Below, in pieces: positions 12,952-50,168 of a stretch of 52,099 nucleotides of DNA. Made by a program: the position numbers and the translations under genes. Origin of the DNA: a virus. Numbering within the stretch: position 1 is the first letter of the stretch; each line of letters opens with the position of its first letter. The stretch covers positions 1 through 52,099 of IMG/VR virus record IMGVR_UViG_3300047318_000360, one strand, 5' to 3'. The notes under the pieces were generated by a model. That model saw only the letters and a list, made by a program, of their open reading frames with translations, had not been told where the DNA came from and searched no databases.

Positions 12952-14577
12952 CTATTGATACATAGATAAGTCAAATGCTGCTTCTCTACTAGGAGTATCA
13001 TCTACAGTAGTAAATTCACCTCTTATAACCATTGCAGCAATATTACCAAATACTACTGAATGTAACCAATCGTCTGTTAAGTCTTCATCTTTACGATATA
13101 GACGTTTACCTGACAAGGATTCTTCTTCAAATACATTCAATGCATCACTCCAGTACGGTTCCATAAGATTCCAGCATGGAGTTTCAAATCTAGTAGGACC
13201 CATCTTTGCTTTAACAACGACGGTATCTATATTCATAGTTCTATCAGCTGCGTAGTAACCACCTATCTTGTCCCATCTTAATGCATTTTTGGCGGATACA
13301 TAGTTAACCATAGCAACTTTATCTTCGCCCAAGTGTTGCTTCATCATTTGACCTTGAAGTACACCAACACCTCTATCTGAGCCTACCATACTACATTTAT
13401 ATTTGAAGTATAGTTGTTCAACTCTGGCTACCTGTTCTAGAATATCAACCCCATCAATACGTTGTGTATACAATAAGTAGCATCTTCCGTTATAGTCATA
13501 CCCTAATACACTAATAACGGTATAACTCTTAGTAGATCCACTTACGCTCCAATCTACTCCAACGGTAGTCATACAAATCTTACGATCATCGTGCGGGAAC
13601 CCTTCATCGAATGACATCTTATTAGCATTACAACAAGCCATAACTTCTCTTAGAGATAGAATACGACCACCAACACCTGAAGGAACTCCAAAGACCTCAT
13701 TAGCAATTTTCTGTGCAGAGTATGTCTTTGATTTATCTACTAGTTCTTTCCACTTCTTCGGCTTATTACGAGCAGGGAAGATAACTTGTGGTAGATGGAA
13801 TGATAGATGATCTTTTTCGTTAGGTCGTGCAGCAATCCATTTACCAGTCTTCATATCTAAGAGTCCACCACAATAAACACACCCTGGGCCATCAGGATTA
13901 GAGTGCAAGATCTTAGAACATGTTTCAAAATCGATTGGGATAGTATGTTTACCACAGTGAGGACATTTAACTACCCACTCTAACATGTTCCCACGTTTGA
14001 ATAACACTGTAAGAGAATTGTTCTCAGTCTTAGCAGTTCCAGTATGACGAGAGAAAGCAAACTCAGATGCACCCATAGTTTCAGAAAGAATAGGTAGTGC
14101 TTCTAAGCTGATATCTTGTGCCTCGTCATATAAGTTCATATCAGATGCAACACCTCGAATACGGTCAGCATCTTGTTCTGTTTGAGCGTATCCAAGAATG
14201 ATACGTGAACCGTTATTCAGAGTCTTTTCAAATACGTTCTTCTTATCAGTAGGATCAACGTAATACTTTTTAATGATAGGTGATTCGAAGAATGTTCCTA
14301 GATACGCAGAACTGAATCGTGAAGTCTGTTGTGCTAAGGGGCTTATGAACAAACTAACGAAGTGAGGTCGTAATACTGAGTTAACAGTAAGCATTGCACT
14401 AAGCGAAACTGATTTACCAATCTGACGCCCTGCCATAAGCGTTAGCTTAGAGGGGTTAATGTCGTAGATCAGCTGAAACGGTTTATAGTCTTCCAAGTTG
14501 AGAGGTTTACCCTTCAACTGAAGAATCGCTGTTGCCAATTTACTTGGCAAGATCTTTACCATATTTTCTTTATCCAT
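12952..14577 (-). CDS. terL: Terminase large subunit (541 aa)
   Basis: DNA-packaging motor ATPase and nuclease. Walker A is MAGRQIGKS (48-56), Walker B is MNLYDEAQD (147-155) and HTGTAKTE (178-185) fits the coupling motif. A zinc-binding insert has CPHC (205-208) and CVYC (233-236), as in GpA-like terminases. The nuclease domain has GVDWSVSGS (340-348) with a catalytic-type Asp, MVGSDRGVG (397-405) and a late DDWLHS motif. Length fits the family. It starts the packaging-tail unit of the minus strand. No small terminase or portal lies next to it. Confidence 0.92.
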   Translation of the reverse strand: MDKENMVKILPSKLATAILQLKGKPLNLEDYKPFQLIYDINPSKLTLMAGRQIGKSVSLSAMLTVNSVLRPHFVSLFISPLAQQTSRFSSAYLGTFFESPIIKKYYVDPTDKKNVFEKTLNNGSRIILGYAQTEQDADRIRGVASDMNLYDEAQDISLEALPILSETMGASEFAFSRHTGTAKTENNSLTVLFKRGNMLEWVVKCPHCGKHTIPIDFETCSKILHSNPDGPGCVYCGGLLDMKTGKWIAARPNEKDHLSFHLPQVIFPARNKPKKWKELVDKSKTYSAQKIANEVFGVPSGVGGRILSLREVMACCNANKMSFDEGFPHDDRKICMTTVGVDWSVSGSTKSYTVISVLGYDYNGRCYLLYTQRIDGVDILEQVARVEQLYFKYKCSMVGSDRGVGVLQGQMMKQHLGEDKVAMVNYVSAKNALRWDKIGGYYAADRTMNIDTVVVKAKMGPTRFETPCWNLMEPYWSDALNVFEEESLSGKRLYRKDEDLTDDWLHSVVFGNIAAMVIRGEFTTVDDTPSREAAFDLSMYQ

Positions 14578-14939: not shown

Positions 14940-14949
14940 TTGGTATAAT
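14940..14949 (+). promoter_or_regulatory. TTGGTATAAT promoter of the Ubl gene
   Basis: This copy of the plus-strand box ends in T, giving TG-G-TATAAT, which is also a perfect extended -10 for host sigma70. It leaves a leader of roughly 80 nt before the ATG at 15035. Confidence 0.7.
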
Positions 14950-15034
14950 AAATTTGTAAGGAAGTATTAATAGCCGAATATAACCCTACATTTTTAGTTA
15001 ACGTTAAATAAATATAAATAGAGAGCATTAGAAT

Positions 15035-15304
15035 ATGACTACCAATATCGTCCGCACTGAACTGATCGTAACCACCAACGACACTGACTACCAGATTCCA
15101 GGTGATTGGACTCCAGCACAACTGGTGACCAACTACTCGGCTTCGATCTCGGGTCTGGCTAACATGGTTCATGAGTCCCGTGTAGAATACCGTGAAGGTC
15201 TGGGCAACGTGCGCGTTGTTACCTTCAAGCCAAAGACTGGCACCAAGGGTTTTCGCCCTCTGAAAGGCGCTGGTGCTAAGAGCGTTACCCGTCGTCACAA
15301 GTAA
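15035..15304 (+). CDS. Ubiquitin-like protein, PRTRC protein C-like (89 aa)
   Basis: Small beta-rich protein whose region 58-72 (NVRVVTFKPKTGTKG) matches the ending I know from PRTRC system protein C, a ubiquitin-like modifier family. In that family the chain normally ends near GTKG; here 17 more residues follow (FRPLKGAGAKSVTRRHK), which may be a processed tail. It opens the operon that also encodes E2-like, JAB and E1-like proteins. Its codons are clearly richer in C-ending forms (CTG, ACC, AAC, CGT) than most neighbours, and it has its own strong promoter and terminator, suggesting high expression. The ribosome binding site is weak (AGAGAG). Fold not proven. Confidence 0.65.
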   Translation: MTTNIVRTELIVTTNDTDYQIPGDWTPAQLVTNYSASISGLANMVHESRVEYREGLGNVRVVTFKPKTGTKGFRPLKGAGAKSVTRRHK

Positions 15305-15335
15305 TTAATAAACTAAGCGTAATAGCTTAGAAAGA

Positions 15336-15374
15336 GGGCAGGTTAAACATTTGTTTAGCTTGCCCGTTTTTTTT
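15336..15374 (+). terminator. Strong terminator after the Ubl gene
   Basis: 13-bp stem GGGCAGGTTAAAC / GTTTAGCTTGCCC with an ATTT loop, then a T run and AG. A separate hairpin CTAAGC/GCTTAG (15313-15330) precedes it. It would keep Ubl expression higher than that of the downstream genes, which have no box of their own until 19012. Confidence 0.85.
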
Positions 15375-15394
15375 AGTTCTATCAAGGTGGTTTT

Positions 15395-16297
15395 ATGCAA
15401 TCAAATAGAATCGTCAATGCCAGTAAGATTGTTTCCTATGTTGTTCAGACATTGAAGACAAATGTTACGAAACGATTGTTGGATTTCTGCAAGAATCGGG
15501 TAATCGAAACTGGATTGACCACAAAAGGTCTTAGTACCGAATTCGTTATTAGTCAAGACCATAGAGAGACGGTAAAGACTATTAGCAAACTTAAAACTCT
15601 GATCTATAAATACCTTATTAAACGAATTCCGTATCTATCGTTTACTCAAGGTGAATTCTTACAGATAACTGATCGGGATAAGTTTACTGTAAATATCCAA
15701 AACTCTGAAATGACGAGTGACTTTGATTTCATAGATTGGGATTTAATCAATGGTAAGATAAAACCATCTAACTATGATCTCACTGGGATAGCAGAGAGGG
15801 TATTAAGATTGTGTGCTAAAGAGCATCCAATTAATAAACCTATTATACGATACGTTAGATATTTGAATTATATCTTTCGGAAGTATTGTATTCCAGTATG
15901 CGCTACTGCAAATTTTCAGATAAAGTTTAATGAAGATGTAGTATATAAACTACATAATAAAAAGGCTTCTGAAAAGAAGGTAGCAGTAATCCCTTTCAAG
16001 ATTCATGCAACCATTAACTTCCAGTTTGTAAAATGGGGATCACATGACGAATCACGTCATACTGATATCAGAAATGGAATTATGCAAGAATCTAATTTCT
16101 ATAGTAATGCAAGTGATTGGAATATCCACGCCTATGGGTATTCTACATCGAATGCTCAAGGTAGTAATCTGTATAGATATTCTATAGAGAAATTCTTTAT
16201 GCATATCGATAAGGCAATCACTATTGCTACAACCCTATCTCGAAAAGTTAATTATGAAGTTACAGCGTATCATTTCAGAAGTTCAGAAGATTCCTGA
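15395..16297 (+). CDS. Unknown protein in the Ubl operon (300 aa)
   Basis: ATG 15395 follows an AAGGTGG ribosome binding site. The protein has a basic helical N-terminal part and a beta-rich part from about residue 165 (CATANFQIKFNED, then HATINFQFVKWGSHDESRHTD). No membrane segment and no recognised family. It lies between the Ubl and E2-like genes and overlaps the next gene by 44 nt. Canonical PRTRC cassettes carry further proteins called E and F that I could not match here. A substrate adaptor or a diverged PRTRC member is a guess from position. Confidence 0.65.
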   Translation: MQSNRIVNASKIVSYVVQTLKTNVTKRLLDFCKNRVIETGLTTKGLSTEFVISQDHRETVKTISKLKTLIYKYLIKRIPYLSFTQGEFLQITDRDKFTVNIQNSEMTSDFDFIDWDLINGKIKPSNYDLTGIAERVLRLCAKEHPINKPIIRYVRYLNYIFRKYCIPVCATANFQIKFNEDVVYKLHNKKASEKKVAVIPFKIHATINFQFVKWGSHDESRHTDIRNGIMQESNFYSNASDWNIHAYGYSTSNAQGSNLYRYSIEKFFMHIDKAITIATTLSRKVNYEVTAYHFRSSEDS

Positions 16298-16514
16298 TCA
16301 ACTGAGAGATTTAAAAGAGCTATTTATCAAAACCGAAAAAATTAAAGTTGTCAAAACTCCTGAGGATATTGACGAACTTAATAAGATGTTGGAACAAGAT
16401 TTTCGTATTGCAACAAACCAACGGTTTGATAAAATTAGCTTAACTGGTGTTGAAGCTCGCTTCAGAGTTTCTCCTACTTTTTACGACTCCTCTTCTTCTG
16501 ATGATTTTATCTAA
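16254..16514 (+). CDS. Small protein of the Ubl operon (86 aa)
   Basis: ATG 16254 is preferred over an upstream TTG at 16224. Helical, charged N-terminal half (coiled-coil-like) and a Ser/Asp-rich acidic tail. It overlaps the previous gene by 44 nt, and its TAA shares a base with the ATG of the E2-like gene (TAATG), so the two are probably translated together in similar amounts, consistent with a partner of the E2-like protein. No family is recognised. Confidence 0.6.
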   Translation: MKLQRIISEVQKIPDQLRDLKELFIKTEKIKVVKTPEDIDELNKMLEQDFRIATNQRFDKISLTGVEARFRVSPTFYDSSSSDDFI

Positions 16515-17368
16515 TGGATATCTTATCTAATGCTGCTCATGTAGAGCATCCAAATTTACCACCTACATTAGGTGAAGCAATATCACAAGTCAATGTTGAA
16601 GATGAGTTCAAAGCATTGATGGACGGTGTTGAAAATAATCCTCTCTATATGAAGGAAAGTGTCTTTGTACCTGTAGTATTACGAGAAGACTTCGTAGAAG
16701 TTGACTTGGGTAACAACTTAAAGAAGAATATCTCTTATGCAGATTTCAGAAGCATCATTGGCAAGATTATCAATGATACTAGTGAAGTGGCTGTTAGTGG
16801 TATTCTGCCTCCTTCCAATCTCATCTTTTTTTCTCATAACAATAAACAAATCAAGCTTACTTGTTATTATCCTACGGCTATCCGTCCTCTGAAGTACTTG
16901 ACTTCTAAGTTTGAAATCGTAGCACCTAACATGATCATCAGCCATGTTCTCGAAAAAGATGGCAAAGATTGGTTAGTAAAAAGCACGAAGTTCTTCTGTA
17001 CGGATCAGCCTATTCGGAAACTGAAAACTACGTTCATTGACGCTGTTGATCATCATGCACGTATATTCTTGAGCCCATTTAGTAATACATATGCAGAAGG
17101 GCGTATGTGCTATGGTGGAAATCAGATGCCTGTCAGGTATAAAGATGATAACCTGAGAGGTTTGGATTACTACTATAAGTTCCTATGGGATAGCCCTTTC
17201 AACGATGACTTAGGGATTCCTGCACTTCGTAGGAATCAATACGATGGTGCCAGAGCTTGGTACGATCTACTTTCTAATAATCGTAAAGAGAAGAAGGCAT
17301 TTCCGTATGACAAGGTTAATGGGTGGACTGAACATCCAGATGGCATTGCTCCAGAAGTACCAATCTAA
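16514..17368 (+). CDS. E2-like protein, PRTRC protein B-like (284 aa)
   Basis: Residues 185-206 carry FLSPFSNTYAEGRMCYGG, which matches the active-site pattern of ubiquitin-conjugating enzymes (P-N-x-Y-x-x-G-x-x-C) and of PRTRC protein B; Cys199 would take the Ubl as a thioester. The following FLWDSPFNDD also resembles the conserved segment after the Cys in that family. The N-terminal 130 residues are not recognised. It is coupled to the gene before it by TAATG and followed after 75 nt by the JAB gene. The call depends on one clear motif plus the surrounding genes. Confidence 0.68.
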   Translation: MDILSNAAHVEHPNLPPTLGEAISQVNVEDEFKALMDGVENNPLYMKESVFVPVVLREDFVEVDLGNNLKKNISYADFRSIIGKIINDTSEVAVSGILPPSNLIFFSHNNKQIKLTCYYPTAIRPLKYLTSKFEIVAPNMIISHVLEKDGKDWLVKSTKFFCTDQPIRKLKTTFIDAVDHHARIFLSPFSNTYAEGRMCYGGNQMPVRYKDDNLRGLDYYYKFLWDSPFNDDLGIPALRRNQYDGARAWYDLLSNNRKEKKAFPYDKVNGWTEHPDGIAPEVPI

Positions 17369-17397
17369 TAACTCGGTAGTCTATTAGAGTACCATTC

Positions 17398-17424
17398 GGC
17401 AGTGAGACAACTGACTGCCTTTTA
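17398..17424 (+). terminator. Weak terminator or attenuator between the E2-like and JAB genes
   Basis: GGCAG / CTGCC stem followed by TTTTATTT. No promoter box lies between it and the next gene, so partial read-through is expected. Confidence 0.45.
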
Positions 17425-17443
17425 TTTCAATTGAAAGTTACAA

Positions 17444-19000
17444 ATGCAAATTACTGAACTCGCCCCGTTTATCAGCTGTGTATGTGGTCCTAACGAATTT
17501 CAAGAAGCTTTGAATAAGGGTTACAAAGAGATCTATATCGTTTCAAACAAGGGTACCATTTTGAAGCATCATCAACTGCGTGGCGAAAATCGTTTCGTTC
17601 GTGTTAAGGTTGATAAGATTCCAGGGTTTACTATCCCTCAAACTGAAGTGGAAATCAAAGAGAGTATGAACTTCCTGCCAGCAGGTAAGATTCCTTTCAG
17701 CCTCTACGAACAGATCGAAGCATTCTTCCGTAAGGTTATTCAAGTGCGTGGTACTGCATTGGAAGCAATGATCTTTATCTTGTGGAACAAGGATCAAGGC
17801 TACCACTTGTTCGTTCCTGAGCAGCGTGTTGGTGCAGCTTCTGTGAGTTTCGATCCCAGTACTATCCCAGGTGGTTCCACTGTGGTTGTGAACGTTCACT
17901 CACACGGTCACATGAATTCGTTCTTCTCCGGTACCGATGATAACAACGATAAAGATCTCGTTCAGTTCTCGGGCGTATTCGGTAACTTCCAGACTGCAGT
18001 TCCGACCACCATCTGGCGCTTCAACTACTACCTGACTAAGTTCAAGTGTGAAACAAAAGATATCTTTGAGACTCCAGTCAAGGAAGGGATCGAAGTTCCT
18101 CAAGAATGGATGGATCAAGTTACTCAACCTACCTTCAGCCAGAACAAGGGAGGTCACAGTAACCTGGGAAACGTGGGAAGAAACACGGCAGAGCACCTCA
18201 AACCCTGGCAGTTTCAAAAGGGGATGAATCGTCAGGGTCAGCAGATTCAAGCGGGTCAGCCCGTCCTGTTTCCAACCGTAAGCAGCGTAGAGAAGAGAAA
18301 CGCTCAAGAAGATCTTCTGGGCGGTAAAGATACTCCTTTCATTGGTTTTGAACCAGATGAATCTTCGTTCAGTGCTGACGTTAGCCCTTCTACTCCTCAT
18401 CCAAATTTCACCCCTCCTAAGATGCCTGGCATCGTTTGGAAATGGGATAATGAAAAGGGTCAGTATCGTAACGTAGCAGGTACTGAAGAAGAGAACGATC
18501 CTGAAGCAATTCACTTCGATGGTACTCCTTCCGTGGAAGATGAAATTAACGATGCAGCAACAGCAGCTTTCATGGCCGCTATCAACAGTAGCGATGAGGC
18601 ATTTGCGCATCTGAGAGAAGTTGATGCTGAGGAGGCTGACTCGGGTCAACTGGGAAAGCCTCACGGAATAACTCCGGAAGGAGTGGAGCTAAAGTCATTG
18701 AGCTTGCCCAACGAATCAGGGAACTTAGAAGCTCCAGGTGATCACATTGAAGGTTGGAGTGAGGATATTGCTATCCAGTATGAAGCAATCAATTCACGCT
18801 ATGGCGTAGACGTTGCTGATGCTTGGTGGGGTATTGATTCGGAAATGCACAACCTTCATGAGCATCCGTTGCTTCTTACGAGTCTCATGGGGGATATGTA
18901 CAATCTCCTCAGTGATGATGACAAGTTCAACTTCTTTACGGATATGATCTCTAATCTTCCTGAGAAGTATCTTCAGCAGATTCAAGCGAACGGTCTCTAA
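17444..19000 (+). CDS. JAB/JAMM metalloprotease, PRTRC protein A-like (518 aa)
   Basis: The N-terminal ~230 residues form a JAB/MPN-type domain: NVHSHGHMNSFFSGTDDNND (150-169) supplies His152, His154, Ser162 and Asp165 of the JAMM zinc site, and Glu107 in LEAMIFILW is the likely catalytic acid. The SHG-x-M-x-x-FFS-x-x-D form and the following GVFGNFQ and PTTIWRF segments are those of PRTRC protein A. Such enzymes trim Ubl precursors or remove Ubls from targets. A further ~290 residues are low-complexity, Pro/Gly/Gln-rich then acidic, ending in a helical domain, which is much longer than the JAB core needs. Confidence 0.82.
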   Translation: MQITELAPFISCVCGPNEFQEALNKGYKEIYIVSNKGTILKHHQLRGENRFVRVKVDKIPGFTIPQTEVEIKESMNFLPAGKIPFSLYEQIEAFFRKVIQVRGTALEAMIFILWNKDQGYHLFVPEQRVGAASVSFDPSTIPGGSTVVVNVHSHGHMNSFFSGTDDNNDKDLVQFSGVFGNFQTAVPTTIWRFNYYLTKFKCETKDIFETPVKEGIEVPQEWMDQVTQPTFSQNKGGHSNLGNVGRNTAEHLKPWQFQKGMNRQGQQIQAGQPVLFPTVSSVEKRNAQEDLLGGKDTPFIGFEPDESSFSADVSPSTPHPNFTPPKMPGIVWKWDNEKGQYRNVAGTEEENDPEAIHFDGTPSVEDEINDAATAAFMAAINSSDEAFAHLREVDAEEADSGQLGKPHGITPEGVELKSLSLPNESGNLEAPGDHIEGWSEDIAIQYEAINSRYGVDVADAWWGIDSEMHNLHEHPLLLTSLMGDMYNLLSDDDKFNFFTDMISNLPEKYLQQIQANGL

Positions 19001-19011
19001 TCTCGTAAATC

Positions 19012-19021
19012 GTGGTATAAG
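19012..19021 (+). promoter_or_regulatory. GTGGTATAAG promoter with hairpin leader
   Basis: Box variant followed at once by a 9-bp stem GGAGGGGTA-GCAA-TACCCTTCC (19021-19042) with a GNRA-type loop, which would sit at the 5' end of the transcript. It precedes the gene at 19061. Confidence 0.6.
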
Positions 19022-19060
19022 GAGGGGTAGCAATACCCTTCCTGTTTCAAGGAAATTGTT

Positions 19061-19297
19061 ATGTTTAATGCTATTGTTATCTGGTTCCTCAAGTCTGTTC
19101 TCAAAGAACGTGTAGTAATGGTTGTTTACGAGGGCGGATCCCAGAAGATTAGACCGGTTGTTTCAACAGAAGGCGGCAAAGTTTACGTTCGTAGTGAAGG
19201 TAACAAAGTCGGGTTTCTAGATCAACCAAAAAACAAGGCCGGTGAATTCCGCAAGGGCATCAGCGACGATAAACTTATTAGATGGTTCGATGTATGA
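19061..19297 (+). CDS. Unknown small protein (78 aa)
   Basis: ATG follows AAGGAAATTGTT. The first 12 residues are hydrophobic; the rest is a beta-rich basic stretch (VVMVVYEGG, GKVYVRSEGNK). No family is recognised. It lies between the JAB and E1-like genes, with a 4-nt overlap (ATGA) to the next ORF, so it belongs to the same operon segment. Confidence 0.6.
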   Translation: MFNAIVIWFLKSVLKERVVMVVYEGGSQKIRPVVSTEGGKVYVRSEGNKVGFLDQPKNKAGEFRKGISDDKLIRWFDV

Positions 19298-19566
19298 GCG
19301 ATAAGCTATTTTTAAAAGATATACCTCCAGGTACTGTCATAAAAAGGGCAGATAGTGCAAATCATGCTATTTACTATATGTGTGTTGCTCCTCATGTATC
19401 TTTCCTAAAGAATACTGATGAAGACACAATGCATAGACCTATGAGATTAGATACCTTCGAAGTCTTAGGGTCTAAGGCATGGTTGCAGGTACCTTTCGAA
19501 AAAGTGGATGCGAAGATAACCATCATCGACCCAACCCATAAACCTCCAAAGTTATATAATGTTTAG
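19294..19566 (+). CDS. Unknown small protein (90 aa)
   Basis: ATG 19294 overlaps the previous stop (ATGA). The sequence is beta-rich with PPGTVIKR and HAIYYMCVAPH, reminiscent of a small barrel, but no family is recognised. It overlaps the E1-like gene by 8 nt, so translation of the two is probably coupled. A role in the Ubl system is suggested only by that packing. Confidence 0.6.
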   Translation: MSDKLFLKDIPPGTVIKRADSANHAIYYMCVAPHVSFLKNTDEDTMHRPMRLDTFEVLGSKAWLQVPFEKVDAKITIIDPTHKPPKLYNV

Positions 19567-20989
19567 ATATACACCTCAAACTATTCCCACCAATATCTTT
19601 GTGATTGGTGGAGGCGGTACTGGCTCCCGACTGATGCCAATGCTGGTTCAGTTCATTCGCTCTATCACTCGTGGTAAGAGTCCTATGGGCTGGCTGGAAA
19701 ATCCAACCATCTGGGTAGTGGATGATGACACTGTTGAATTGAAGAATTTGCTTCGTCAGAACTTCATCGACAAAGATGTTAATAAGCCAAAAGCTCAAGT
19801 GCTGGCTGAAAGGTATGGCCGTGCATACGACGTAGATGTGGTCCCTATCATCAAGCGCGTTGAAAGTTCGAATAGTGATTTTCGTACAGCTGTTCAGGAA
19901 GTTCTTTCAGCAAGACAACTGGCAGGACAGCAAGCGCCTAATCTTGCAGCAGTATTGAACAGTTCCATTGTTATCAGCTGTGTAGATTCCGCTGCAGCTC
20001 GTCGTAACATTCTGAATAACTTCATCGTGACCTCAATTAGTCATACTAATCAAGGATGTTTCTTTATCGATGCTGGTAACGAAGACTCTTTCGGTCAGGT
20101 TAACTTCTTTACACCGACAGTTGTTTCTGAAGGGGACGTTTATAATGGTCTTCCTGAGAACCAAAAAGTCCCAAAGATGGTCGGATCTATTTGTGATATT
20201 AACTTCCTCCCAATGGACGTTAAATATTATCGAGATCTGGTAGACACTGTTAGTACTGCGTCATGTGCTGATCTAAATCAGACCCTGGCTATTAATGCTA
20301 TTATGGCTACTACCATTATGGGTATTGTTCAGAACTACTACTACCGTAAGCCTTTTCAGTATAACTGTGTACGTTTCAGTCTTGATGGTGCTAATGCGAC
20401 AGAGTACTGCACCTTTAATAGCCTTAAACGTAATGCACTTGAATACAATGCTGTTACCAGTTTTATGTATGGCTCGGTGAAGGTAAAAGAGAAGAATAAC
20501 TTAAACACTACCTTGACATTCGGTAGACAGCTTCAGTATGTAGATCTTTATGCTGGGGTAGCTGTTAAGTTACTTCAGAAGATTGGATCAGATAAAGTTG
20601 AAGCTGAACGCTTGGCTAAGGAAGAAGAAGATCGTCTTAAAGCTGAGGAAGCCCTAACTAAGAAAGCAATGGCATCCGAGGCCAGTATTGCGAGGCTTAA
20701 GTCTAAGCGTAAGGATATGAACCGTAGTACTGAGTTGAAGGTACTGGTAGAGGAGGAAGGTGTACCAGTCGGTACTACTGTGGAGGTGATGACAGCTAAC
20801 CCTGTGCCACTGCCACCATCAGTAGAGGCATCAACTGCAGCTTCACGTAACTCACGTAGGCGCAATCCAAATGTCACTACAGGTCTTCCTCCAGTGGAAG
20901 TTCCACAAACTTGGATTCAACCAGTAGATGTAGACTCCGAAGCTATGAATCGAGCAATCGAATCTGTAACAGCTTTGCGTAATCGTTAA
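19559..20989 (+). CDS. E1-like adenylating enzyme, ThiF/PRTRC ThiF-like (476 aa)
   Basis: ThiF/E1 domain: nucleotide-binding loop VIGGGGTGSR (15-24), acidic pocket VVDDDTVELKNLLRQNF (53-69) with the Arg and Gln that grip ATP, DVNKPKAQ, and SCVDSAAARR (140-149). It adenylates the C-terminus of a Ubl or ThiS-like protein. TASCADLNQTLAINA (233-247) matches the region I associate with the catalytic Cys of PRTRC ThiF proteins, so Cys236 is the likely thioester site. The last ~130 residues are a charged helix and a Pro/Ser-rich tail beyond the usual domain. It ends the operon and is followed by a terminator. Confidence 0.85.
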   Translation: MFRYTPQTIPTNIFVIGGGGTGSRLMPMLVQFIRSITRGKSPMGWLENPTIWVVDDDTVELKNLLRQNFIDKDVNKPKAQVLAERYGRAYDVDVVPIIKRVESSNSDFRTAVQEVLSARQLAGQQAPNLAAVLNSSIVISCVDSAAARRNILNNFIVTSISHTNQGCFFIDAGNEDSFGQVNFFTPTVVSEGDVYNGLPENQKVPKMVGSICDINFLPMDVKYYRDLVDTVSTASCADLNQTLAINAIMATTIMGIVQNYYYRKPFQYNCVRFSLDGANATEYCTFNSLKRNALEYNAVTSFMYGSVKVKEKNNLNTTLTFGRQLQYVDLYAGVAVKLLQKIGSDKVEAERLAKEEEDRLKAEEALTKKAMASEASIARLKSKRKDMNRSTELKVLVEEEGVPVGTTVEVMTANPVPLPPSVEASTAASRNSRRRNPNVTTGLPPVEVPQTWIQPVDVDSEAMNRAIESVTALRNR

Positions 20990-20995
20990 AAAGAA

Positions 20996-21022
20996 AAGCC
21001 GGAAAACATCCCGGCTTTTTTT
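20996..21022 (+). terminator. Terminator after the E1-like gene
   Basis: AAGCCGG / CCGGCTT stem, T run, then AG. It also separates this operon from the convergent minus-strand genes. Confidence 0.8.
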
Positions 21023-21029
21023 AGATTAA

Positions 21030-21440
21030 TCAACTTGATCGTTCTCGTGAGGCTAGTTCTAACGTTTCAGTAACATTGAAGGTTGCCATAATAGTACCGT
21101 CTTGTCGAGTCATTACTAAGGTATTTGCATTCTTATCCCATACCCAACTACCTAAAGCTTCATCTTCGAGGTTCTTAAGAATAGACTGGGTAGTTCTTTG
21201 TACTGCTTCTACTCTAGCAACAATTTTGTTATCTAGGAAGATTCCATAGTTACCTGATGCTGAAGGTGTAAAGGTTAATACATAGTATCCGGGAGATACT
21301 TCCAATAAAGTTAAGGATGGGGAGAGAACTGTAACGTTCCCATTCATAACTACTGCAGAAGCTGCGTTAGCGATACCGACAGTACCTGCAAAATATAATT
21401 TAGTGGCAGTTCCTACTGCCGTTTCGATGTTCATTGTCAT
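21030..21440 (-). CDS. Putative virion protein (136 aa)
   Basis: Beta-rich N-terminal domain (Ig-like or carbohydrate-binding-like in composition: SPGYYVLTFTPSASGNYGIF) and a C-terminal segment WVWDKNANTLVMTRQDGTIM followed by ASRERSS. I have the impression that this last segment recurs in phage tail or neck proteins, but I cannot name the family. Last gene of the minus-strand unit that begins near 23.5 kb. An ATG two codons further in is also possible. Confidence 0.5.
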   Translation of the reverse strand: MTMNIETAVGTATKLYFAGTVGIANAASAVVMNGNVTVLSPSLTLLEVSPGYYVLTFTPSASGNYGIFLDNKIVARVEAVQRTTQSILKNLEDEALGSWVWDKNANTLVMTRQDGTIMATFNVTETLELASRERSS

Positions 21441-21970
21441 AGGTTATCCATTGCTTGAATATATGTTTCGATAGCTTTCTTTTTAGCCATAGTATCTGCT
21501 TCAGTCTGACCTTTTTCTAAACACGTTTTAGGTACAAATCCAAAAGGCTCTACTGGCTCTGAATATCCTTCTTCTTTTAACAGGTATCCAATAACATCAG
21601 AAACCATGCTATCAGGAGCAGGTGAATGATATCTATCCCCCAGTAATTTTTTAACTTCAGCAAGAGCATAAGCAAGTTCCAAACTAGTAGGCATAGGAAG
21701 CCTGTCGAAGTCAGCTATCTGATTGTTCATAACCACAACTGCATGCAAGAAGAATGTAGCATTGGTGAAGAACAGTTCAGGGTCTTTCTCAATGAGCTGC
21801 AAAATATGAATCTTATCTCTCGTCAGCTCATCGAAGGACATTTTTAGCTCATCAGAAATAGTCTCTAGTTCCCAGCCATGCCATGTACCTTTCGTAAAAA
21901 TACGATCAAGACTATTTCTAATATGAGTTAGGGAAGCTAACCCTAGAGATGATTCATTTGGTTTAGACAT
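21437..21970 (-). CDS. Hypothetical virion-operon protein (177 aa)
   Basis: Helical, acidic, with no membrane segment and no recognised family. It overlaps the genes on both sides by 4 and 8 nt. Its place in a unit of likely structural genes suggests a virion or assembly role. Confidence 0.55.
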   Translation of the reverse strand: MSKPNESSLGLASLTHIRNSLDRIFTKGTWHGWELETISDELKMSFDELTRDKIHILQLIEKDPELFFTNATFFLHAVVVMNNQIADFDRLPMPTSLELAYALAEVKKLLGDRYHSPAPDSMVSDVIGYLLKEEGYSEPVEPFGFVPKTCLEKGQTEADTMAKKKAIETYIQAMDNL

Positions 21971-23584: not shown

Positions 23585-24208
23585 TTATTGGTCAGAAATT
23601 ATAGAATTCATAATAGAAACTATATCTTCAGTTACCAAAGGGGTAGTAGCTGGGTTGATCGTAAAATGCGTTTTTATGAGTCCTGGTAATTTTGAGCTAT
23701 GTTCTGGAAGGTACTTGTTCTCCATGAAGAGAAATTCCCATTTGCCAGATACTGCGTAACAACTTATCGCAAGTATGTCAAACTCACCTTTAACGAGTGC
23801 CGTACCAGTAACACTACCAACACCATCCACTTCAATGGTCCTTTTATCCGTCGCTTTGACTTGAACCTTACCCTGCCAGGTATCATTAAGTATATCTTCT
23901 CTTATGCTATTTGTTGCTATGCTTTTTACTTCTATTGTTAGTGTCTTGCCGTTGTATACAACTCTGAAATCACCCTTCTCTTTACACTGATCAGGAATCT
24001 TTACAACACTAGTTACTCCAGGTATTTGTAGGAGCTGCTTCTTCAGTGCGACCTCTGCTAAGTAGCCTTGGAGGTATCCACGGAGGCTTGAGTTCTCAGA
24101 GATTACTTGTTCGAGTTCTTCTTGGGTAAAGTCGGAAAGGATTGACATCTGATGTGGAGTTGTTTTTATTATTGCATTTAGCATATCAGATGTCTTGACT
24201 ATGGTCAA
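23585..24208 (-). CDS. PD-(D/E)XK family nuclease-like protein (207 aa)
   Basis: Restriction-endonuclease-like core: a helix with Glu52 (GYLAEVALKKQLL), then KGDFRVVYNGKTLTIEVKS, giving Asp80 and Glu93-Val-Lys95, the classic D-x(n)-E-x-K metal site. It should be a DNA nuclease, or a DNA-binding relative. The gene is embedded among virion-type genes and overlaps the upstream gene by 4 nt, so it might be packaged or act on DNA during head maturation. No particular restriction enzyme family can be named. Confidence 0.65.
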   Translation of the reverse strand: MTIVKTSDMLNAIIKTTPHQMSILSDFTQEELEQVISENSSLRGYLQGYLAEVALKKQLLQIPGVTSVVKIPDQCKEKGDFRVVYNGKTLTIEVKSIATNSIREDILNDTWQGKVQVKATDKRTIEVDGVGSVTGTALVKGEFDILAISCYAVSGKWEFLFMENKYLPEHSSKLPGLIKTHFTINPATTPLVTEDIVSIMNSIISDQ

Positions 24209-24996
24209 CCTTTAGCCTTACGAGGAGTGTGGTCGAAGTAAACGCTACGAACTCCAGACCCTCTGAATTTATTAGCTGAAACAACTCTATGATCAGGGGA
24301 TACTATACGTTCCATAAACTTGTTATTACCTTCTAAATGATGACGAAACATAGCATTTGTATCAGCCTTCAAAAAGCTCTTAGGGTTATAAACTGCCATA
24401 TCGTATGTTTTAGAAATCGTATCTTGAGCTTTATTATACTTTTCAGTTAGTTCTGGTGTAGGCGAGTTAGATTTTAAGTATTTACTTTCATCTAGTCTAG
24501 CATTCTGATGGCGTTTGACAACAACTGGAATACGTTTTATTACAGCTTGATTAGGATACTTCTGTAAAAGATTCTTACCAGAAGGTTCTACTACCCTGTT
24601 TGGAGGATTAGATCCTGAAGTACCTGGATGGGTATGTAAATTATCATTAACTGAAGATCCTGCTCTACGTAGTTTATGTTCTTGACCTTTAATAACATTG
24701 GACTCTATTCTGCCAGAATCATTTACTCTAGTACTAAATTCAAAACCTTTAGATCCTCCATGTTTATCGCTTATACTCTTTAACTTGTTTATAGTATTAT
24801 GATTTACATCTCCTAACTTAGCTCGACCTTCTTGAAGAGCTTTACCAGTTAACGCATCCCCTCTTCCAGACCGAAGATTACGCACAGCGTATTTCCATGT
24901 ACTCGTGTGGTCAGGTATAACTCCTACGGCCTTAGCCATCTGTCTGGCCTTAAGCGCGTTGAGGGCTACTTTTTCTAAGTATTTGTTGTCGTTCAT
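24205..24996 (-). CDS. Protein with LEKVA N-terminus and degenerate JAB-like motif (263 aa)
   Basis: Opens with MNDNKYLEKVALNAL, the tag shared with other virion-region proteins. In the middle, a strand pair (GFEFSTRV...) is followed by NLHTHPGTSG (119-128) and PSGKNL (138-143), which resembles the JAMM site H-x-H-P...PS-x-x-D but with Asn142 where the third metal ligand Asp should be. It may be an inactive or altered JAB domain. The C-terminal part is basic. It overlaps both neighbouring genes by 4 nt. Confidence 0.5.
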   Translation of the reverse strand: MNDNKYLEKVALNALKARQMAKAVGVIPDHTSTWKYAVRNLRSGRGDALTGKALQEGRAKLGDVNHNTINKLKSISDKHGGSKGFEFSTRVNDSGRIESNVIKGQEHKLRRAGSSVNDNLHTHPGTSGSNPPNRVVEPSGKNLLQKYPNQAVIKRIPVVVKRHQNARLDESKYLKSNSPTPELTEKYNKAQDTISKTYDMAVYNPKSFLKADTNAMFRHHLEGNNKFMERIVSPDHRVVSANKFRGSGVRSVYFDHTPRKAKG

Positions 24997-25877
24997 AATT
25001 TACTCTTGTCAATTCCTGGAGCTATACCCCAGTTCAGTAGTGCTTGTCTGCGTCTAGGTTGTACACTCAAGTCTGATAGTGTAGGATCAGCTTTAGTTAA
25101 CTGTGCCAAATGTCGTGCTTTGAAGCTAATCCAACGTTTGATCTGACGCTCATCATCTGGAGTTCTTTTTCCAGCAGAGTATCCTTGGTACCAATCAAAC
25201 CACCCCATAGGAGCTGTTTTAGGATCTATCCATTTCTTTGGCCATTCACTCATACTAGCGTCCACATGGAAGTAGTTAGCTTCTCCAGGGTCTTTATGAA
25301 AGTATTGCTTGGCTAATACTCCTAGCTGTCGCATCTCTGAAGGTGATAGGTCTGGCTGGAAACGGTCTTCCAACTCACTGGCAACTTTGTCTAAGAATCG
25401 ATTAGAGCCCTTCAGAGACGTTAGAACCTTCTCACGCTGGGTAGCTATGGACCTAGCTGATTTAACGTCCTGTAGGGCCTCTGAGAGGCTTCTCCATCGA
25501 TACTTACGGCTGTCCCCATCATCACCAAGCTTAGATTTATCCATTTGGTCATAATCAGCCACATACCATCTAGTCTCACTACCACGAAACTTCAGGTGAC
25601 GGTCATCCTTCTTACCGAGCCCACCTTGTTCTTTGAAGGTGATATTTGTCTTCTTCAGGTTCTTTACCTTGATGCCTACTTCTTCGAGACACTCGTTCTC
25701 AGCAGCTTCTGACTCGGTCTGATCATCTACGCCACCTCCAGGGAAGGCGTACCACTGATCACCAGTGTCAGGATTCTTACACTTCATGATTAGAACCTTG
25801 TCGTCTTTTCTAATGACAACTTCGACTCTAGCACGGTAGGGAAGCTTTTCAGCAATCTTTGTTAGGTATGTGTTCAT
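24993..25877 (-). CDS. Nudix hydrolase with C-terminal conserved domain (294 aa)
   Basis: Residues 14-140 form a Nudix domain, box at 47-69: PGGGVDDQTESE then ENECLEEVGI. Relative to G-x5-E-x7-R-E-x-x-E-E the box is one residue shorter and has Gln and Asn at the first Glu and Arg, but the metal-binding ECLEE core is kept. It may cleave nucleotide or ADP-ribose-type diphosphates. From about 150 a separate domain with GWFDWYQGYSAGKR and DDERQIKRW resembles an uncharacterised family in large viruses. The chain begins with NTYLTKIAE, the shared N-terminal tag. A paralogue lies at 29458-29958. Confidence 0.75.
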   Translation of the reverse strand: MNTYLTKIAEKLPYRARVEVVIRKDDKVLIMKCKNPDTGDQWYAFPGGGVDDQTESEAAENECLEEVGIKVKNLKKTNITFKEQGGLGKKDDRHLKFRGSETRWYVADYDQMDKSKLGDDGDSRKYRWRSLSEALQDVKSARSIATQREKVLTSLKGSNRFLDKVASELEDRFQPDLSPSEMRQLGVLAKQYFHKDPGEANYFHVDASMSEWPKKWIDPKTAPMGWFDWYQGYSAGKRTPDDERQIKRWISFKARHLAQLTKADPTLSDLSVQPRRRQALLNWGIAPGIDKSKL

Positions 25878-27338: not shown

Positions 27339-27896
27339 GTGAACATAAATGAAATTCTACTCAGTCAGATCATCGAAACTGACAGTCCATTGACTATCCC
27401 GAAGTTAATCTCGGAAACTTTCAAAGTGAAAAACAACTACTATGTTGTAACAGATGGGAACGTATTCAACTACTATCCGATAAAGGTAGAAGTAACACCT
27501 GAAGACAAACCATTTTTTCGCTTAGAGAAATCAGCTCCAGTGCTACTGGAAGGTGTGGCAATTATAGACAAGAAAGTCTATGCCGTACCATTATCCGATC
27601 TCATGCGAAGACTTGTACGAAAATCCCGAGAAATTAACTTAGAGGTAGTAAATGGAAGCTTTAACACTAGTAGCGATGCCACAGCAGCAGATTCAACCCT
27701 CCCCCCTTCCCCTGACGTTGCTGGCACAAAAGCCATTCAACCTATTGTCAAACGAAGATCTAACCGAGAAATTGAAGTGGAAATCGGTGAAGCTGCTGAC
27801 ATTGCTTGGCAAGACCAAGTCAGAGCACTACTCAGTGTTGTATCTGAGGAAGAAGGGTTCGGCGGGGAGGAGTGGGAAATTACGGACGCTGCATAA
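27339..27896 (+). CDS. Unknown protein overlapping the reverse transcriptase (185 aa)
   Basis: GTG start with weak upstream GGAT. The N-terminal ~105 residues look like a folded beta-rich domain (NNYYVVTDGNVFNYYPIKVE). From about residue 105 it becomes Ser/Pro-rich then acidic, exactly where the reverse transcriptase reading frame begins on the same DNA (27652-27896, +1 frame). No family is recognised. Either both frames are used or the two are joined by a frameshift. Confidence 0.5.
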   Translation: MNINEILLSQIIETDSPLTIPKLISETFKVKNNYYVVTDGNVFNYYPIKVEVTPEDKPFFRLEKSAPVLLEGVAIIDKKVYAVPLSDLMRRLVRKSREINLEVVNGSFNTSSDATAADSTLPPSPDVAGTKAIQPIVKRRSNREIEVEIGEAADIAWQDQVRALLSVVSEEEGFGGEEWEITDAA

Positions 27897-28800
27897 TCCG
27901 GATGGTTTGATGAGGGTTGTTCAATTCAAAATCTTGAAACAACTCTTGGAAAAAATCGAAGTACCGGAATATATCCACGCGTTCGAGAAAGAAAGGAGCA
28001 TCCCAGCAATGGCTGCTCTTCACGTAGGTAAACAAGTTGTCGTAAGTCTTGATCTTAAAGACTTCTTCACTTCGATTAAACAGTATCATGTTGACCAGAT
28101 CTTCCAGCATCTAGGCATTGCAGAAAAACCTGCAAGGACTCTATCTGAGCTCTGCACCTACAAGAGTTTTGTTCCACAAGGAGCTTTGACTAGTCCAAAG
28201 CTTAGTAATATCGTAACAGCATTAACATTCGGCCCTCACATTAAAAACTATTGTGATACCAAAGAGTATACCTTATCCATATATGCGGACGATATCACAA
28301 TCTCGTGTGATCAAAAATTAGATGGTCAAGAAGGACGTGATACTGTCACCCAACTAATTACCTTTGTTACCGAACAAGTTCAGCGATTTGGTTTCAAGAT
28401 CAATCGTGACAAAATTAAGGTAATGAAAACCTACCAACGACAATACGTATGTGGAGCCGTTGTGAACCAAAAAGTCAATATGCAAAAACGGGAGCGTCAC
28501 AAACTCCGAGCCATTGTCTATAACTGTGAAAAGAATGGTATCAAAGCAGAGGCAGAGAAGAATAGCCTTTCACCAGATCAGTTCGCATCAAAGATAATGG
28601 GGCGACTTAATTGGTTCGCTCAGCTTAATCCTGAAGCTGGGGAACGTGGAAAAGAAAAGTTTAAACAAGTCTGTGCGGATCAAATAACGTGCCCCACAGC
28701 CGAGACTGAAAGCGTAAAAGAAATAGGGCCGCTAGACAGTCTACCTCAACTCCCACCAACATTGGCAGAAGCAGTAGCAGCCGATACACCGTGGAATTGA
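27652..28800 (+). CDS. Retron-like reverse transcriptase (382 aa)
   Basis: All core reverse-transcriptase motifs are present: SLDLKDFFTSI (132-142) with the first Asp, VPQGALTSPKLSN (174-186), the YADD active site (211-214), FGFKINRDK (247-254) and a thumb-like basic region. PQG-x-x-TSP-x-LSN is the retron/group-II form and not the diversity-generating form. The retron hallmarks are altered: MAALH (120-124) where N-A-x-x-H is usual and VCG (266-268) where VTG is usual. The start at 27652 has a good AGAGGT site. The last 50 residues are Pro- and acid-rich. Likely a retron or stand-alone phage reverse transcriptase. Confidence 0.82.
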   Translation: MEALTLVAMPQQQIQPSPLPLTLLAQKPFNLLSNEDLTEKLKWKSVKLLTLLGKTKSEHYSVLYLRKKGSAGRSGKLRTLHNPDGLMRVVQFKILKQLLEKIEVPEYIHAFEKERSIPAMAALHVGKQVVVSLDLKDFFTSIKQYHVDQIFQHLGIAEKPARTLSELCTYKSFVPQGALTSPKLSNIVTALTFGPHIKNYCDTKEYTLSIYADDITISCDQKLDGQEGRDTVTQLITFVTEQVQRFGFKINRDKIKVMKTYQRQYVCGAVVNQKVNMQKRERHKLRAIVYNCEKNGIKAEAEKNSLSPDQFASKIMGRLNWFAQLNPEAGERGKEKFKQVCADQITCPTAETESVKEIGPLDSLPQLPPTLAEAVAADTPWN

Positions 28801-45545: not shown

Positions 45546-46679
45546 ATGAGTAGTTCTACCCCGTTGAAAGATCGTCTTGATGAATTAATGGATTCGGCAA
45601 AAAGTGATAAAGACTTCGATGAAATTGAACAAATCGTAAATACCCAGGATAAGAAAAGAATGGCACCTCAAGTCACAGCATCAAATTCAAAACTGGTCTA
45701 CGGGCCTCATAATCTGGAATACTTTCTTCTTGAGAATTTTCTCCTTAGTAAGTATGACAAGGATCAATCTACTCATAAGTTTGTAGAGAAGAAGATCTGG
45801 ATTCGTAAGACTGGCGTGCATGACTTCGTTAAAGCCTTCTGTGAACAGTTCAAGTTTACTTCGGTAAACCGGGAGGATATCGTTTTCCGTAACGACGATA
45901 GCTTTGTAAAGATCGGCATCACAAACAAAGATCTGGACAAGCTTGAGATCCATTCGGTAAACAACGAGTACGCAAAAGAGATCGAGAAGTTCGTAGAGCA
46001 GTATGAGTGTTCAGATCGTAAGATCAGCATTCGTTGGCTCTATACTCCGGACGGTCGTAGTATGGATCTTATCGAAACCTTTGAGGAAAAAGTTCATAAA
46101 GAACATTATCCATTCATTTCGGATTTCGATACGTTTGGTGAACGGTTCAAGGAATCTAAGAGCAATATTCTTTTGCTCATTGGTGAACCTGGCACCGGCA
46201 AGACAACGTTTATCAAGAATCTTTTAGCTCACATGGATACCATCAGCTATCTGACTTACGATGAGAAGATCCTCAACAACGACTACACCTTTGCTTCCTA
46301 TATGGAAGATGAAGACTCGAACGCGTTCATCATTGAAGATGCGGATCTGTTCCTGCGTTCACGCGCAGATGGTAACAACATGGTTTCTCGTTTCCTGAAT
46401 GTAGGAGACGGCATCGTGAAGATTCCTAATAAGAAGATCATCTTCTCGACAAACCTTCCGAATATCAAGGACATCGATGCTGCACTGGTTCGCCCAGGCC
46501 GTTGCTTCGATATTCTTCATTTCCGTAAACTGACTCGCGTAGAATCGCAAGCCGTTGCGGATATTCACAATATTGTTCTGCCAGGGCCAGACGATAAGCA
46601 AGATTACACCCTTGCTGAGATTTTTAATAACCCTGTTCAAAAACCAAAAATCGTAGCTCGTTCGATGGGCTTCTACTAA
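45546..46679 (+). CDS. AAA+ ATPase (377 aa)
   Basis: A classic AAA+ module in the second half: Walker A GEPGTGKT (213-220), Walker B AFIIEDAD (260-267), sensor-1 IIFSTNLPN (298-306) and the arginine-finger box ALVRPGRC (313-320). The order and the VRPGR box are like those of AAA proteins that remodel other proteins (FtsH/BCS1/ClpX-like ATPases). The first ~190 residues are a separate domain with no recognised fold. No protease domain is present. It could unfold or disassemble host or phage complexes. Confidence 0.85.
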   Translation: MSSSTPLKDRLDELMDSAKSDKDFDEIEQIVNTQDKKRMAPQVTASNSKLVYGPHNLEYFLLENFLLSKYDKDQSTHKFVEKKIWIRKTGVHDFVKAFCEQFKFTSVNREDIVFRNDDSFVKIGITNKDLDKLEIHSVNNEYAKEIEKFVEQYECSDRKISIRWLYTPDGRSMDLIETFEEKVHKEHYPFISDFDTFGERFKESKSNILLLIGEPGTGKTTFIKNLLAHMDTISYLTYDEKILNNDYTFASYMEDEDSNAFIIEDADLFLRSRADGNNMVSRFLNVGDGIVKIPNKKIIFSTNLPNIKDIDAALVRPGRCFDILHFRKLTRVESQAVADIHNIVLPGPDDKQDYTLAEIFNNPVQKPKIVARSMGFY

Positions 46680-48141: not shown

Positions 48142-49035
48142 TTAGGTGAAGTTCACCACAATTGCACCATCTACGTTACCAATACCAGAACCTACTGATT
48201 CGTACGTAGTGAACTCGATCATGTCCGCTTCAGTCTTCAGGAAGACAGTAGCATCTTGCAGCGAGTAGAACTGACCCAAGTATTCTTGCGGAGCAAAAAT
48301 AATTGCTTGGTTGTTAGGTAAGATATTGCTCTTGTTCGTAGTGATAATCTTGTAACCGAAGAAGTTATCCAGCGAAGCCTGACCACGGAACAGCTCAGAA
48401 GCAGCTGGGGAACCGATATCAGTTGCAGCGAAGGTCAACAGGTCAGCATACATACTCTGAGTCATCAGAATACAACCGACAGGCAGACGCTTAGCTAACA
48501 GCTTCTTAACACCAGCCATCAGGTTCACTTTCGAAAAAGTACCAGCACTGAAAACGTTAGAGTTTGCAGTAGCGATGCTGATGATGTTGTTGTAGAAGTT
48601 TACGTCTTCTTGCTCTTGCAGATCCTTTACTGAGTTCTCTTGCAGAATGGTACGAATGTCGGTACGGTAAGTAGCGAGTTCGAACTTCGACTTAGTGAAC
48701 TTAGATGTCGAGATCTTCTGGAAGGTCACAGGGTAACGGGATCCTTTGAAATAACGAATCTCTGCACGGCTCAGGAATGGCAGGTTAGCTGCAACGCTAT
48801 CTGGTTCCTTTTCAACGATCACAGTTGGCTCTTCAGTCAGCTGACGATCGAGTTCCGAAGCAGTGATTTGAACTGGATTCAGAACCTTACGGGTAAATCC
48901 ATCTTCACGCAGTTTCTGACGCACGAATGCGCTCATTGCTGCACCAGCTTCTTTTGTCATTCCCTGGTCGATTTTGTCCAGGAACGACTGGTTCATAAAT
49001 TGAACATTAATAGTTTCAGTAGTATATCCGCTCAT
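48142..49035 (-). CDS. Major capsid protein, HK97-like (297 aa)
   Basis: Long helical N-arm (residues ~1-60, FMNQSFLDKIDQGMT then AFVRQKLREDG), E-loop-like region with Ser/Lys-rich strands, and a P/A-domain end with VGCILMTQSMYADLLTFAATD, GYKIITTNKSNILPNN and VFLKTEADMIEFTTYE. The layout and the GYKI-type segment fit HK97-fold capsid proteins. It is on the same minus-strand unit as the decoration-like gene upstream and ends at a terminator. The strong codon bias fits an abundant protein. Confidence 0.8.
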   Translation of the reverse strand: MSGYTTETINVQFMNQSFLDKIDQGMTKEAGAAMSAFVRQKLREDGFTRKVLNPVQITASELDRQLTEEPTVIVEKEPDSVAANLPFLSRAEIRYFKGSRYPVTFQKISTSKFTKSKFELATYRTDIRTILQENSVKDLQEQEDVNFYNNIISIATANSNVFSAGTFSKVNLMAGVKKLLAKRLPVGCILMTQSMYADLLTFAATDIGSPAASELFRGQASLDNFFGYKIITTNKSNILPNNQAIIFAPQEYLGQFYSLQDATVFLKTEADMIEFTTYESVGSGIGNVDGAIVVNFT

Positions 49036-49601: not shown

Positions 49602-50168
49602 TTACTGATAATATCCTTGAGGCATTTCATCTTGCTTTTTACCAGATAGAGCTTTAGCACCAAGTAATCCCGCTCCAATTCCTCCAGCAATAGCAGTCTT
49701 AGGATTTTTACGAGCGAGTCCTACTGCTTTACCAAGAATGCCTTTAACACCCGTTGCTTCTGCTTTAGCTGGACCAGCCTTTAAAGCAGCCATTTCACTC
49801 TTCACCTTTGCAGCATGGCGATTTCCTGCCAATCTATCATGGATAGAATTTGCAGCCAATACATCCCCAGTCTGTTTCATCTGTTTAGCATCTACAGTTA
49901 CTTTAGTAGATTTTTGGCCTAAGCCCATGAAGGTTTTGTTATTAACCGACATTTGATTTTTAGAACCCGTATTAAACGAATGCATTTTACTAGAAGATCC
50001 TAGACCAGCCAGAATATTCGCATTAGTAGGAGCACCTAGCTTTCTACCAGCAACTCCCTTCGCATCAATATGAGTACGTACTGACAAAGCTTTATTACCG
50101 CCTCCAGCTTTAGTTTCGTTCAGTTTTTGGGCAAATCCTGCAATTTTTTCTAAGTAAATATTGTTCAT
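49602..50168 (-). CDS. Virion-region protein with YLEKIA tag and Gly-rich C-terminus (188 aa)
   Basis: Begins MNNIYLEKIAGFAQKL. The middle is low-complexity and basic. Near the C-terminus a Gly/Ala hydrophobic stretch (TAIAGGIGAGLLGAKALSG) could cross a membrane. Three bases after the previous gene. It shares design with 43363 and 50770. Possible capsid-internal or ejected protein; no known family. Confidence 0.6.
   Translation of the reverse strand: MNNIYLEKIAGFAQKLNETKAGGGNKALSVRTHIDAKGVAGRKLGAPTNANILAGLGSSSKMHSFNTGSKNQMSVNNKTFMGLGQKSTKVTVDAKQMKQTGDVLAANSIHDRLAGNRHAAKVKSEMAALKAGPAKAEATGVKGILGKAVGLARKNPKTAIAGGIGAGLLGAKALSGKKQDEMPQGYYQ

Follow-up and report, generated by a model that had tools for sequence, protein, structure and literature searches.

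Here we describe a cassette of ubiquitin-like conjugation genes in a viral stretch of DNA (IMG/VR virus record IMGVR_UViG_3300047318_000360), the whole of which, 52,099 nucleotides, is referred to as the window; the 52-kb record is linear and probably a fragment. The cassette spans positions 15035–20989 on the + strand, in a virion-gene region that otherwise lies on the − strand, and its eight open reading frames (ORFs) encode a ubiquitin-like protein (Ubl), an E2, a JAB/JAMM protease and an E1, together with two linked genes that we call X and Y. By far the likeliest reading, and one we hold with considerable confidence, is that the cassette specifies a working pathway of Ubl conjugation and deconjugation that is self-contained and owned by the phage. 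This reading is based upon homology, catalytic residues, gene order, core conservation, and expression of the proteins in Salmonella phage Arash. An initial annotation made from the sequence had proposed that a PRTRC-type set of Ubl, E2, JAB and E1 is carried by a phage, and both homology and gene order support this; all eight ORFs were found where it had placed them, and the location of the set between the terminase and the virion genes is correct and is kept in relatives.

The Ubl and its enzymes

The small protein encoded at the head of the cassette is, to judge from its sequence, a PRTRC_C-related Ubl with a C-terminal Gly that can be exposed. Direct scans of the protein against Pfam or NCBIfam gave no match, and its identity was resolved only by use of family profiles. 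The phage Ubl family aligned with PRTRC_C by hhalign at 93% (E 3e-7), with 50 column-shuffled controls reaching at most 1.3%, and a profile comparison of 30 viral Ubls with the C protein of an Aromatoleum plasmid gave 96.5%, the alignment running through the final GTKG. Prok_Ub matches 11 of the 30 viral Ubls, and G69, K71 and G72 (G-x-K-G) are invariant in all of them. The PRTRC_C model found nothing in the Arash-like records tested, and among phage genomes matched only that of KLEB27-3. Structure prediction of the protein alone, proposed in the initial annotation as a check, yielded a beta-grasp model: the AlphaFold model has the order beta-beta-alpha-beta-beta, its core has a pLDDT mostly of 92–96 and its tail is loose, and many of its fold matches are beta-grasp proteins, one of these a bacterial Ubl. 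The protein had been thought to end in TFKPKTGTKG, but this was mistaken. The motif stops at residue 72 of 89 (the Gly72 codon is at 15248–15250) and is followed by the 17 residues FRPLKGAGAKSVTRRHK. The Ubl end is exact in Arash, in L003 and in others, while the window Ubl carries the tail (L numbers are labels of related loci, L005 being Salmonella phage Arash and L007 Vibrio phage D69). Because these 17 residues follow the GTKG of the beta-grasp core, the window Ubl needs trimming, and residues 73–89 are expected to be removed to give the mature tag.

The E2 active-site pattern with Cys199, the full JAMM site, and the E1/ThiF enzyme with its nucleotide loop and likely Cys236, all noticed in the initial annotation, were borne out. 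The E2 matches Prok-E2_D at 34.4 bits (Pfam cut-off 25) and contains Cys199 within the motif NTYAEGRMC; N191 and C199 are invariant in all 25 Arash-like phages. The JAB protein exceeds the Pfam cut-off for Prok-JAB and has E107 in addition to H152, H154, S162 and D165. E107, H152 and H154 are present in 25 of 25 Arash-like phages, and S162 and D165 in 24 of 25, a gap accounted for by splitting of the gene through an insertion, as in L032. The E1 exceeds the Pfam cut-off for ThiF and has the nucleotide loop GGGGTG; the glycines of the ATP loop as well as D55, R66, K78, D143 and C236 are found in 24 of 24 Arash-like phages, and by sequence C236 would be the catalytic Cys. These counts come from alignments to hidden Markov models, which misalign the Cys of plasmid E1s; in a MAFFT alignment the E1 Cys is invariant in the plasmid E1s also. 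The best NCBIfam matches are to PRTRC B for the E2 (23.5 bits, curated cut-off 131.5), PRTRC A for JAB (59.9, cut-off 101.8) and PRTRC ThiF for the E1 (83.8, cut-off 144.8). The profile search suggested in the initial annotation therefore points to the expected families by best match, although every score is below its curated cut-off and C has no direct match.

Two irregularities were observed in the enzyme genes of relatives. In three phages (L009 7170–9190, L032 11211–12329, L185 4007–4341) an interruption falls within the JAB gene, at the codons for the JAMM motif (VVxDIH/SH). In Acinetobacter phage ME3 the gene is split at the JAMM codons by an insertion that contains a group I intron (Rfam RF00028), and L032 and L185 have their break at this same point. 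The E1 of Vibrio phage D69 (L007 9284–9505, − strand) has no ATG, GTG or TTG start near its N-terminus; translation could begin at a rare ATT that follows GGAG, and the coding sequence as annotated looks truncated.

Conservation of the cassette and its poly-Ubl forms

Scans of IMG/VR identified 21 loci with the E2 and 52 loci with JAB. Among isolated phages the cassette is found in Salmonella phage Arash and in Vibrio phages D69, D148 and D181 (terminase 42–51% identical), with Bacillus phage KLEB27-3 and Acinetobacter phage ME3 as more distant carriers. The clade, one of large phages, consists of Arash, D69 and about 20 IMG/VR lineages. In Arash-like phages the genes run Ubl, X, Y, E2, JAB, E1, divergently from the terminase and convergently with two conserved genes; some kilobases of DNA separate cassette and terminase in the Vibrio phages and L041. 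In a separate terminase search, the cassette was present beside the terminase in 15 of 15 contigs whose terminase shared 48% identity or more and that extended far enough upstream, and it was not in view in any contig whose terminase fell below 40% identity. Because all 15 testable contigs hold it, the cassette is not optional; it is a core module of the phage clade. The E1s of the Arash-like group form one clade (SH-aLRT 99), and purifying selection acts on every cassette gene compared. A genome-collection scan with a phage-only E1 alignment recovered bacterial relatives, but X, Y and the terminase were found in none of them. In the bacterial relatives L094, L100, L116, L119 and L144, JAB carries a weakly matching Ubl-like domain as an N-terminal fusion, the junction being HKKG or HRKG.

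X is usually the fastest-diverging gene of the cassette, yet it is under purifying selection. Between L036 and L038, for example, X is 52% and E2 75% identical, compared to 97% for the terminase. Direct family scans of X and Y found nothing significant, and a fold search with X gave no credible match. X was considered as a counterpart of PRTRC_F and this was rejected, as hhalign shows no homology and only the position is shared. Y, when read from ATG 16254, overlaps X by 44 nt, like its counterpart in L003.

An iterative search from the window Ubl showed that nearly all cassettes have at least one Ubl next to them. Fourteen of the genes encode poly-Ubls, with two repeats (8 genes), four repeats (3 genes), or three, five or six; unlike these relatives, the window has a single Ubl. 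The repeats end in GTKG, with GVKG in KLEB27-3 and GSKA in L076. Within 9 of the 14 genes the repeats are at least 91% identical, and identity to the closest Ubl from any other phage is usually 40–66%. In sequence terms this homogenisation within each phage is the pattern of eukaryotic polyubiquitin. A poly-Ubl would require a processing protease, and the JAB gene sits in the same cassette.

Expression, proposed pathway and alternatives

A strong terminator follows the window Ubl gene (stem at 15336–15365 plus a T run). With one base allowed between stem and T run, 18 of 23 Arash-like phages had such a terminator behind the Ubl gene, compared to 0 of 23 after E2, 0 of 13 after X and 6 of 23 after JAB, and in 3 of 276 random stretches. 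The G+C content at third codon positions (GC3) of the Ubl gene, 0.56, is the highest of the genes measured (0.28–0.46 for the others). The terminator and the high GC3 fit a Ubl that is made in excess of its enzymes, which is probably the case. A promoter scan gave nothing above shuffles.

Information on expression also comes from the published proteome of Arash, which lists 116 proteins in sucrose-purified particles (PMC10585845, Table 2). Towards the right end of the genome, the gene numbers of that table are one off from those in GenBank (OQ632216), because only with this shift do the coverages match the GenBank lengths exactly: Gp247 at 77.17% is 267/346 (E1), Gp248 at 61.41% is 253/412 (JAB), Gp251 at 76.25% is 244/320 (X), and Gp244 at 80.50% is 128/159. 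Gp249 is then E2, with 100% coverage. Thus E1, E2, JAB and X of Arash are made and co-purify with particles, and the peptides of the cassette stand unrecognised as such in the published list. Since replication enzymes are also listed and unique peptides are few, these data indicate expression and co-purification rather than a place in the virion. The Arash Ubl gene (L005 15514–15714, − strand) is unannotated, GenBank gp251c being called over it in another frame, so a peptide database based on GenBank could not contain the Ubl.

We propose that the pathway would operate as follows. The Ubl would be produced in excess, with many transcripts stopping at the terminator behind its gene. The JAB protease would trim the C-terminal tail to expose ...TGTKG, and in relatives would cut poly-Ubl between the repeats. 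E1 would adenylate the terminal glycine of the Ubl and take it on Cys236, after which E2 would receive it on Cys199 and join it to lysines of target proteins. X, and perhaps Y, may choose the target as a fast-evolving adaptor, or may itself be the target. Finally, JAB would remove the tag again from its targets.

Several points weigh against such a pathway. How the proteins act chemically, and which way each step runs, are inferred here, and no E3 or target is known. The Ubl has a C-terminus of TGTKG, not GG, and the fold matches of its model are weak, none being under E 0.001. The Pfam match of the E2 is limited to the catalytic half (residues 179–267), and its ubiquitin-conjugating (UBC) fold is predicted from sequence. 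The Arash particle list includes DNA ligase, primase and helicases, and the cassette proteins in it have only 2–5 unique peptides despite their high coverages, figures that are inconsistent with one another.

The role of the pathway is most likely in a core step of the phage cycle, not in optional counter-defence, because the cassette is core and is placed in the virion module; virion assembly or maturation is our best guess for that step. We put forward more tentatively the fuller proposal that the phage uses its own Ubl pathway to modify virion proteins, that this is obligatory for assembly or infection, that the enzymes are within the particle, and that precursors of polyubiquitin type evolved in phages. 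The co-purification of E1, E2, JAB and X with Arash particles bears on the virion as target, but obvious replication enzymes co-purify as well. Possible, though we doubt it to a similar degree, is that the pathway tags and disables defence or housekeeping proteins of the host, in counter-defence or take-over, rather than phage proteins. The divergence of X and E2, far faster than that of the terminase, is what would be expected of host-facing parts and keeps such a role open, and Ubl systems of bacteria take part in defence against phages (PMC10097602). However, counter-defence genes are usually patchy and the cassette is in every clade member with enough sequence; in addition it sits between genes of the virion module, and X is still under purifying selection.

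Two further explanations were considered. The cassette could serve a sulfur-carrier or metabolite pathway like those of ThiS or CysO, in which E1 adenylates the Ubl, a thiocarboxylate is formed and released by JAB, and no protein is tagged. A ThiF-type E1, a JAB protein and a small beta-grasp protein do occur together in sulfur pathways (PMC1779556), and one viral Ubl weakly matches ThiS, but the invariant Cys of the E2 in 25 of 25 phages, the conserved Cys of the E1, the poly-Ubl precursors, and the lack of any recognised sulfur or biosynthetic gene in or beside the cassette make this improbable. Even less probable is a PRTRC plasmid-maintenance system, carried on a phage or phage-plasmid and acting in replication or partition. 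The four homologous proteins and the gene order C-(F position)-B-A-ThiF, as in PRTRC plasmids, speak for it. On the other hand, no match to the ParB, D, E and F models was obtained in the window or in the complete genomes of Arash, D69 and KLEB27-3, while two control plasmids match (D below cut-off in one of them), and X is not detectably related to PRTRC_F. The initial annotation had seen no ParB-like gene in the window, and the silence of the ParB model there and in the complete relatives agrees with this. Because the complete genomes of relatives have none of these four components, the cassette is not a PRTRC system proper.

Layout of the window and relation to known systems

The features of the cassette and its conserved neighbours are listed in Table 1. 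Elsewhere in the window we observed a candidate HK97-fold major capsid protein (48142–49035, − strand; NF042927, 1.4e-13, below cut-off), an AAA-family ATPase (45546–46679, + strand; PF00004, 7e-9), and, among the virion genes, a retron-type reverse transcriptase (27652–28800, + strand; 17252–18388, + strand, in the relative L003) with scores of 8.6e-22 for RVT_1 and, for the PADLOC models, 228 bits for RT_III-A and 208 bits for an Ec107-like type. Several unrelated proteins share the N-terminal tag M-N/T-x-YL-x-K-[I/V/A]-A/S, three in the window (24205–24996, 24993–25877 and 49602–50168, − strand) and three in L003 (12135–13134, − strand); it was found in 0 of 80 bacterial loci and could be a packaging or targeting signal.

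Table 1. Coordinates of the cassette genes, the terminator and the flanking conserved genes in the window.
Feature	Position	Strand	Remarks
Ubl, PRTRC_C relative	15035..15304	+	core residues 1-72, tail 73-89
Intrinsic terminator directly 3' of Ubl gene	15336..15374	+	13-pair stem then T run
X, fast-evolving partner protein	15395..16297	+	300 aa; position kept
Y, small protein	16254..16514	+	start probably ATG 16254, not TTG 16224
E2-like conjugating enzyme, Prok-E2_D / PRTRC_B relative	16514..17368	+	Cys199
JAB/JAMM metalloprotease, PRTRC_A relative	17444..19000	+	long C-terminal extension
Small lineage-specific ORF	19061..19297	+	only the window's own copies matched; none found in relatives
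Small lineage-specific ORF	19282..19566	+	only the window's own copies matched; none found in relatives
E1-like activating enzyme, PRTRC_ThiF relative	19559..20989	+	Cys236
Terminase large subunit	12952..14577	-	conserved divergent neighbour
Two conserved convergent neighbours	21030..21970	-	136 aa and 177 aa

Our searches of the open-access literature found no description of this phage system; subscription papers were outside the search and prior notice is possible. A survey of jumbo phages (PMC7824862) makes no mention of Ubl, JAB or ThiF. What is new here is the cassette as core to a phage clade, the poly-Ubl precursors of phages, the terminator after the Ubl gene, and the identification of cassette peptides in particles. 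Earlier work on bacterial Ubls focused upon host defence and plasmids, and here a complete pathway is fixed in tailed phages. With Arash in culture and Vibrio phages D69, D148 and D181 isolated, the targets of PRTRC-type Ubl pathways become directly testable, as does the use by a virus of self-encoded ubiquitin-like modification in its own cycle.

PRTRC plasmid systems resemble the cassette in having a Ubl that ends in GTKG, an E2 of the Prok-E2_D type, JAB and a ThiF-type E1, the homologues lying side by side in the same order (C..B-A-ThiF) with another gene between Ubl and E2. The phage cassette differs in that it is without ParB, D, E and F, scores below the PRTRC cut-offs, has E1s in a separate clade, and is divergent from a terminase. 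The Bil (BilABCD) and CBASS Cap2/Cap3 systems share the logic of Ubl, E1, E2 and JAB in a prokaryotic setting, but these belong to the host, whereas the cassette is owned by the phage and keeps its ThiF-type E1 and its E2 separate. The likeness to Bil-type defence drawn in the initial annotation did not hold up, as the only PADLOC defence models to match the cassette were E1–E2 models, and these weakly (best E 6.6e-4). The tail proteins I (Ub-like) and K (JAB plus NlpC) of Lambda and T1 are likewise both encoded in a virion gene cluster (PMC1779556), but no E1 or E2 accompanies them, and both are fusions, of JAB with NlpC and of the Ub-like domain with another domain.

Tandem Ubls in themselves are not new, since two to three tandem Ub-like repeats in bacterial operons were reported in 2006. 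Such operons (PMC1779556, PMC11354881) combine the repeats with E1 and JAB, as do the phages. The bacterial operons have 2–3 repeats and an inactive E2-like protein, whereas the phage genes have up to six repeats, nearly all of which end in G[T/V]KG, and the phage E2 keeps its Cys. The phage poly-Ubl genes are an apparent parallel to the polyubiquitin genes of eukaryotes, which also consist of head-to-tail repeats that are cut by deubiquitinases and homogenised within the genome. The eukaryotic genes are an unrelated locus, and in the phages processing would be expected from a JAMM protease and the repeats end in GTKG rather than GG.

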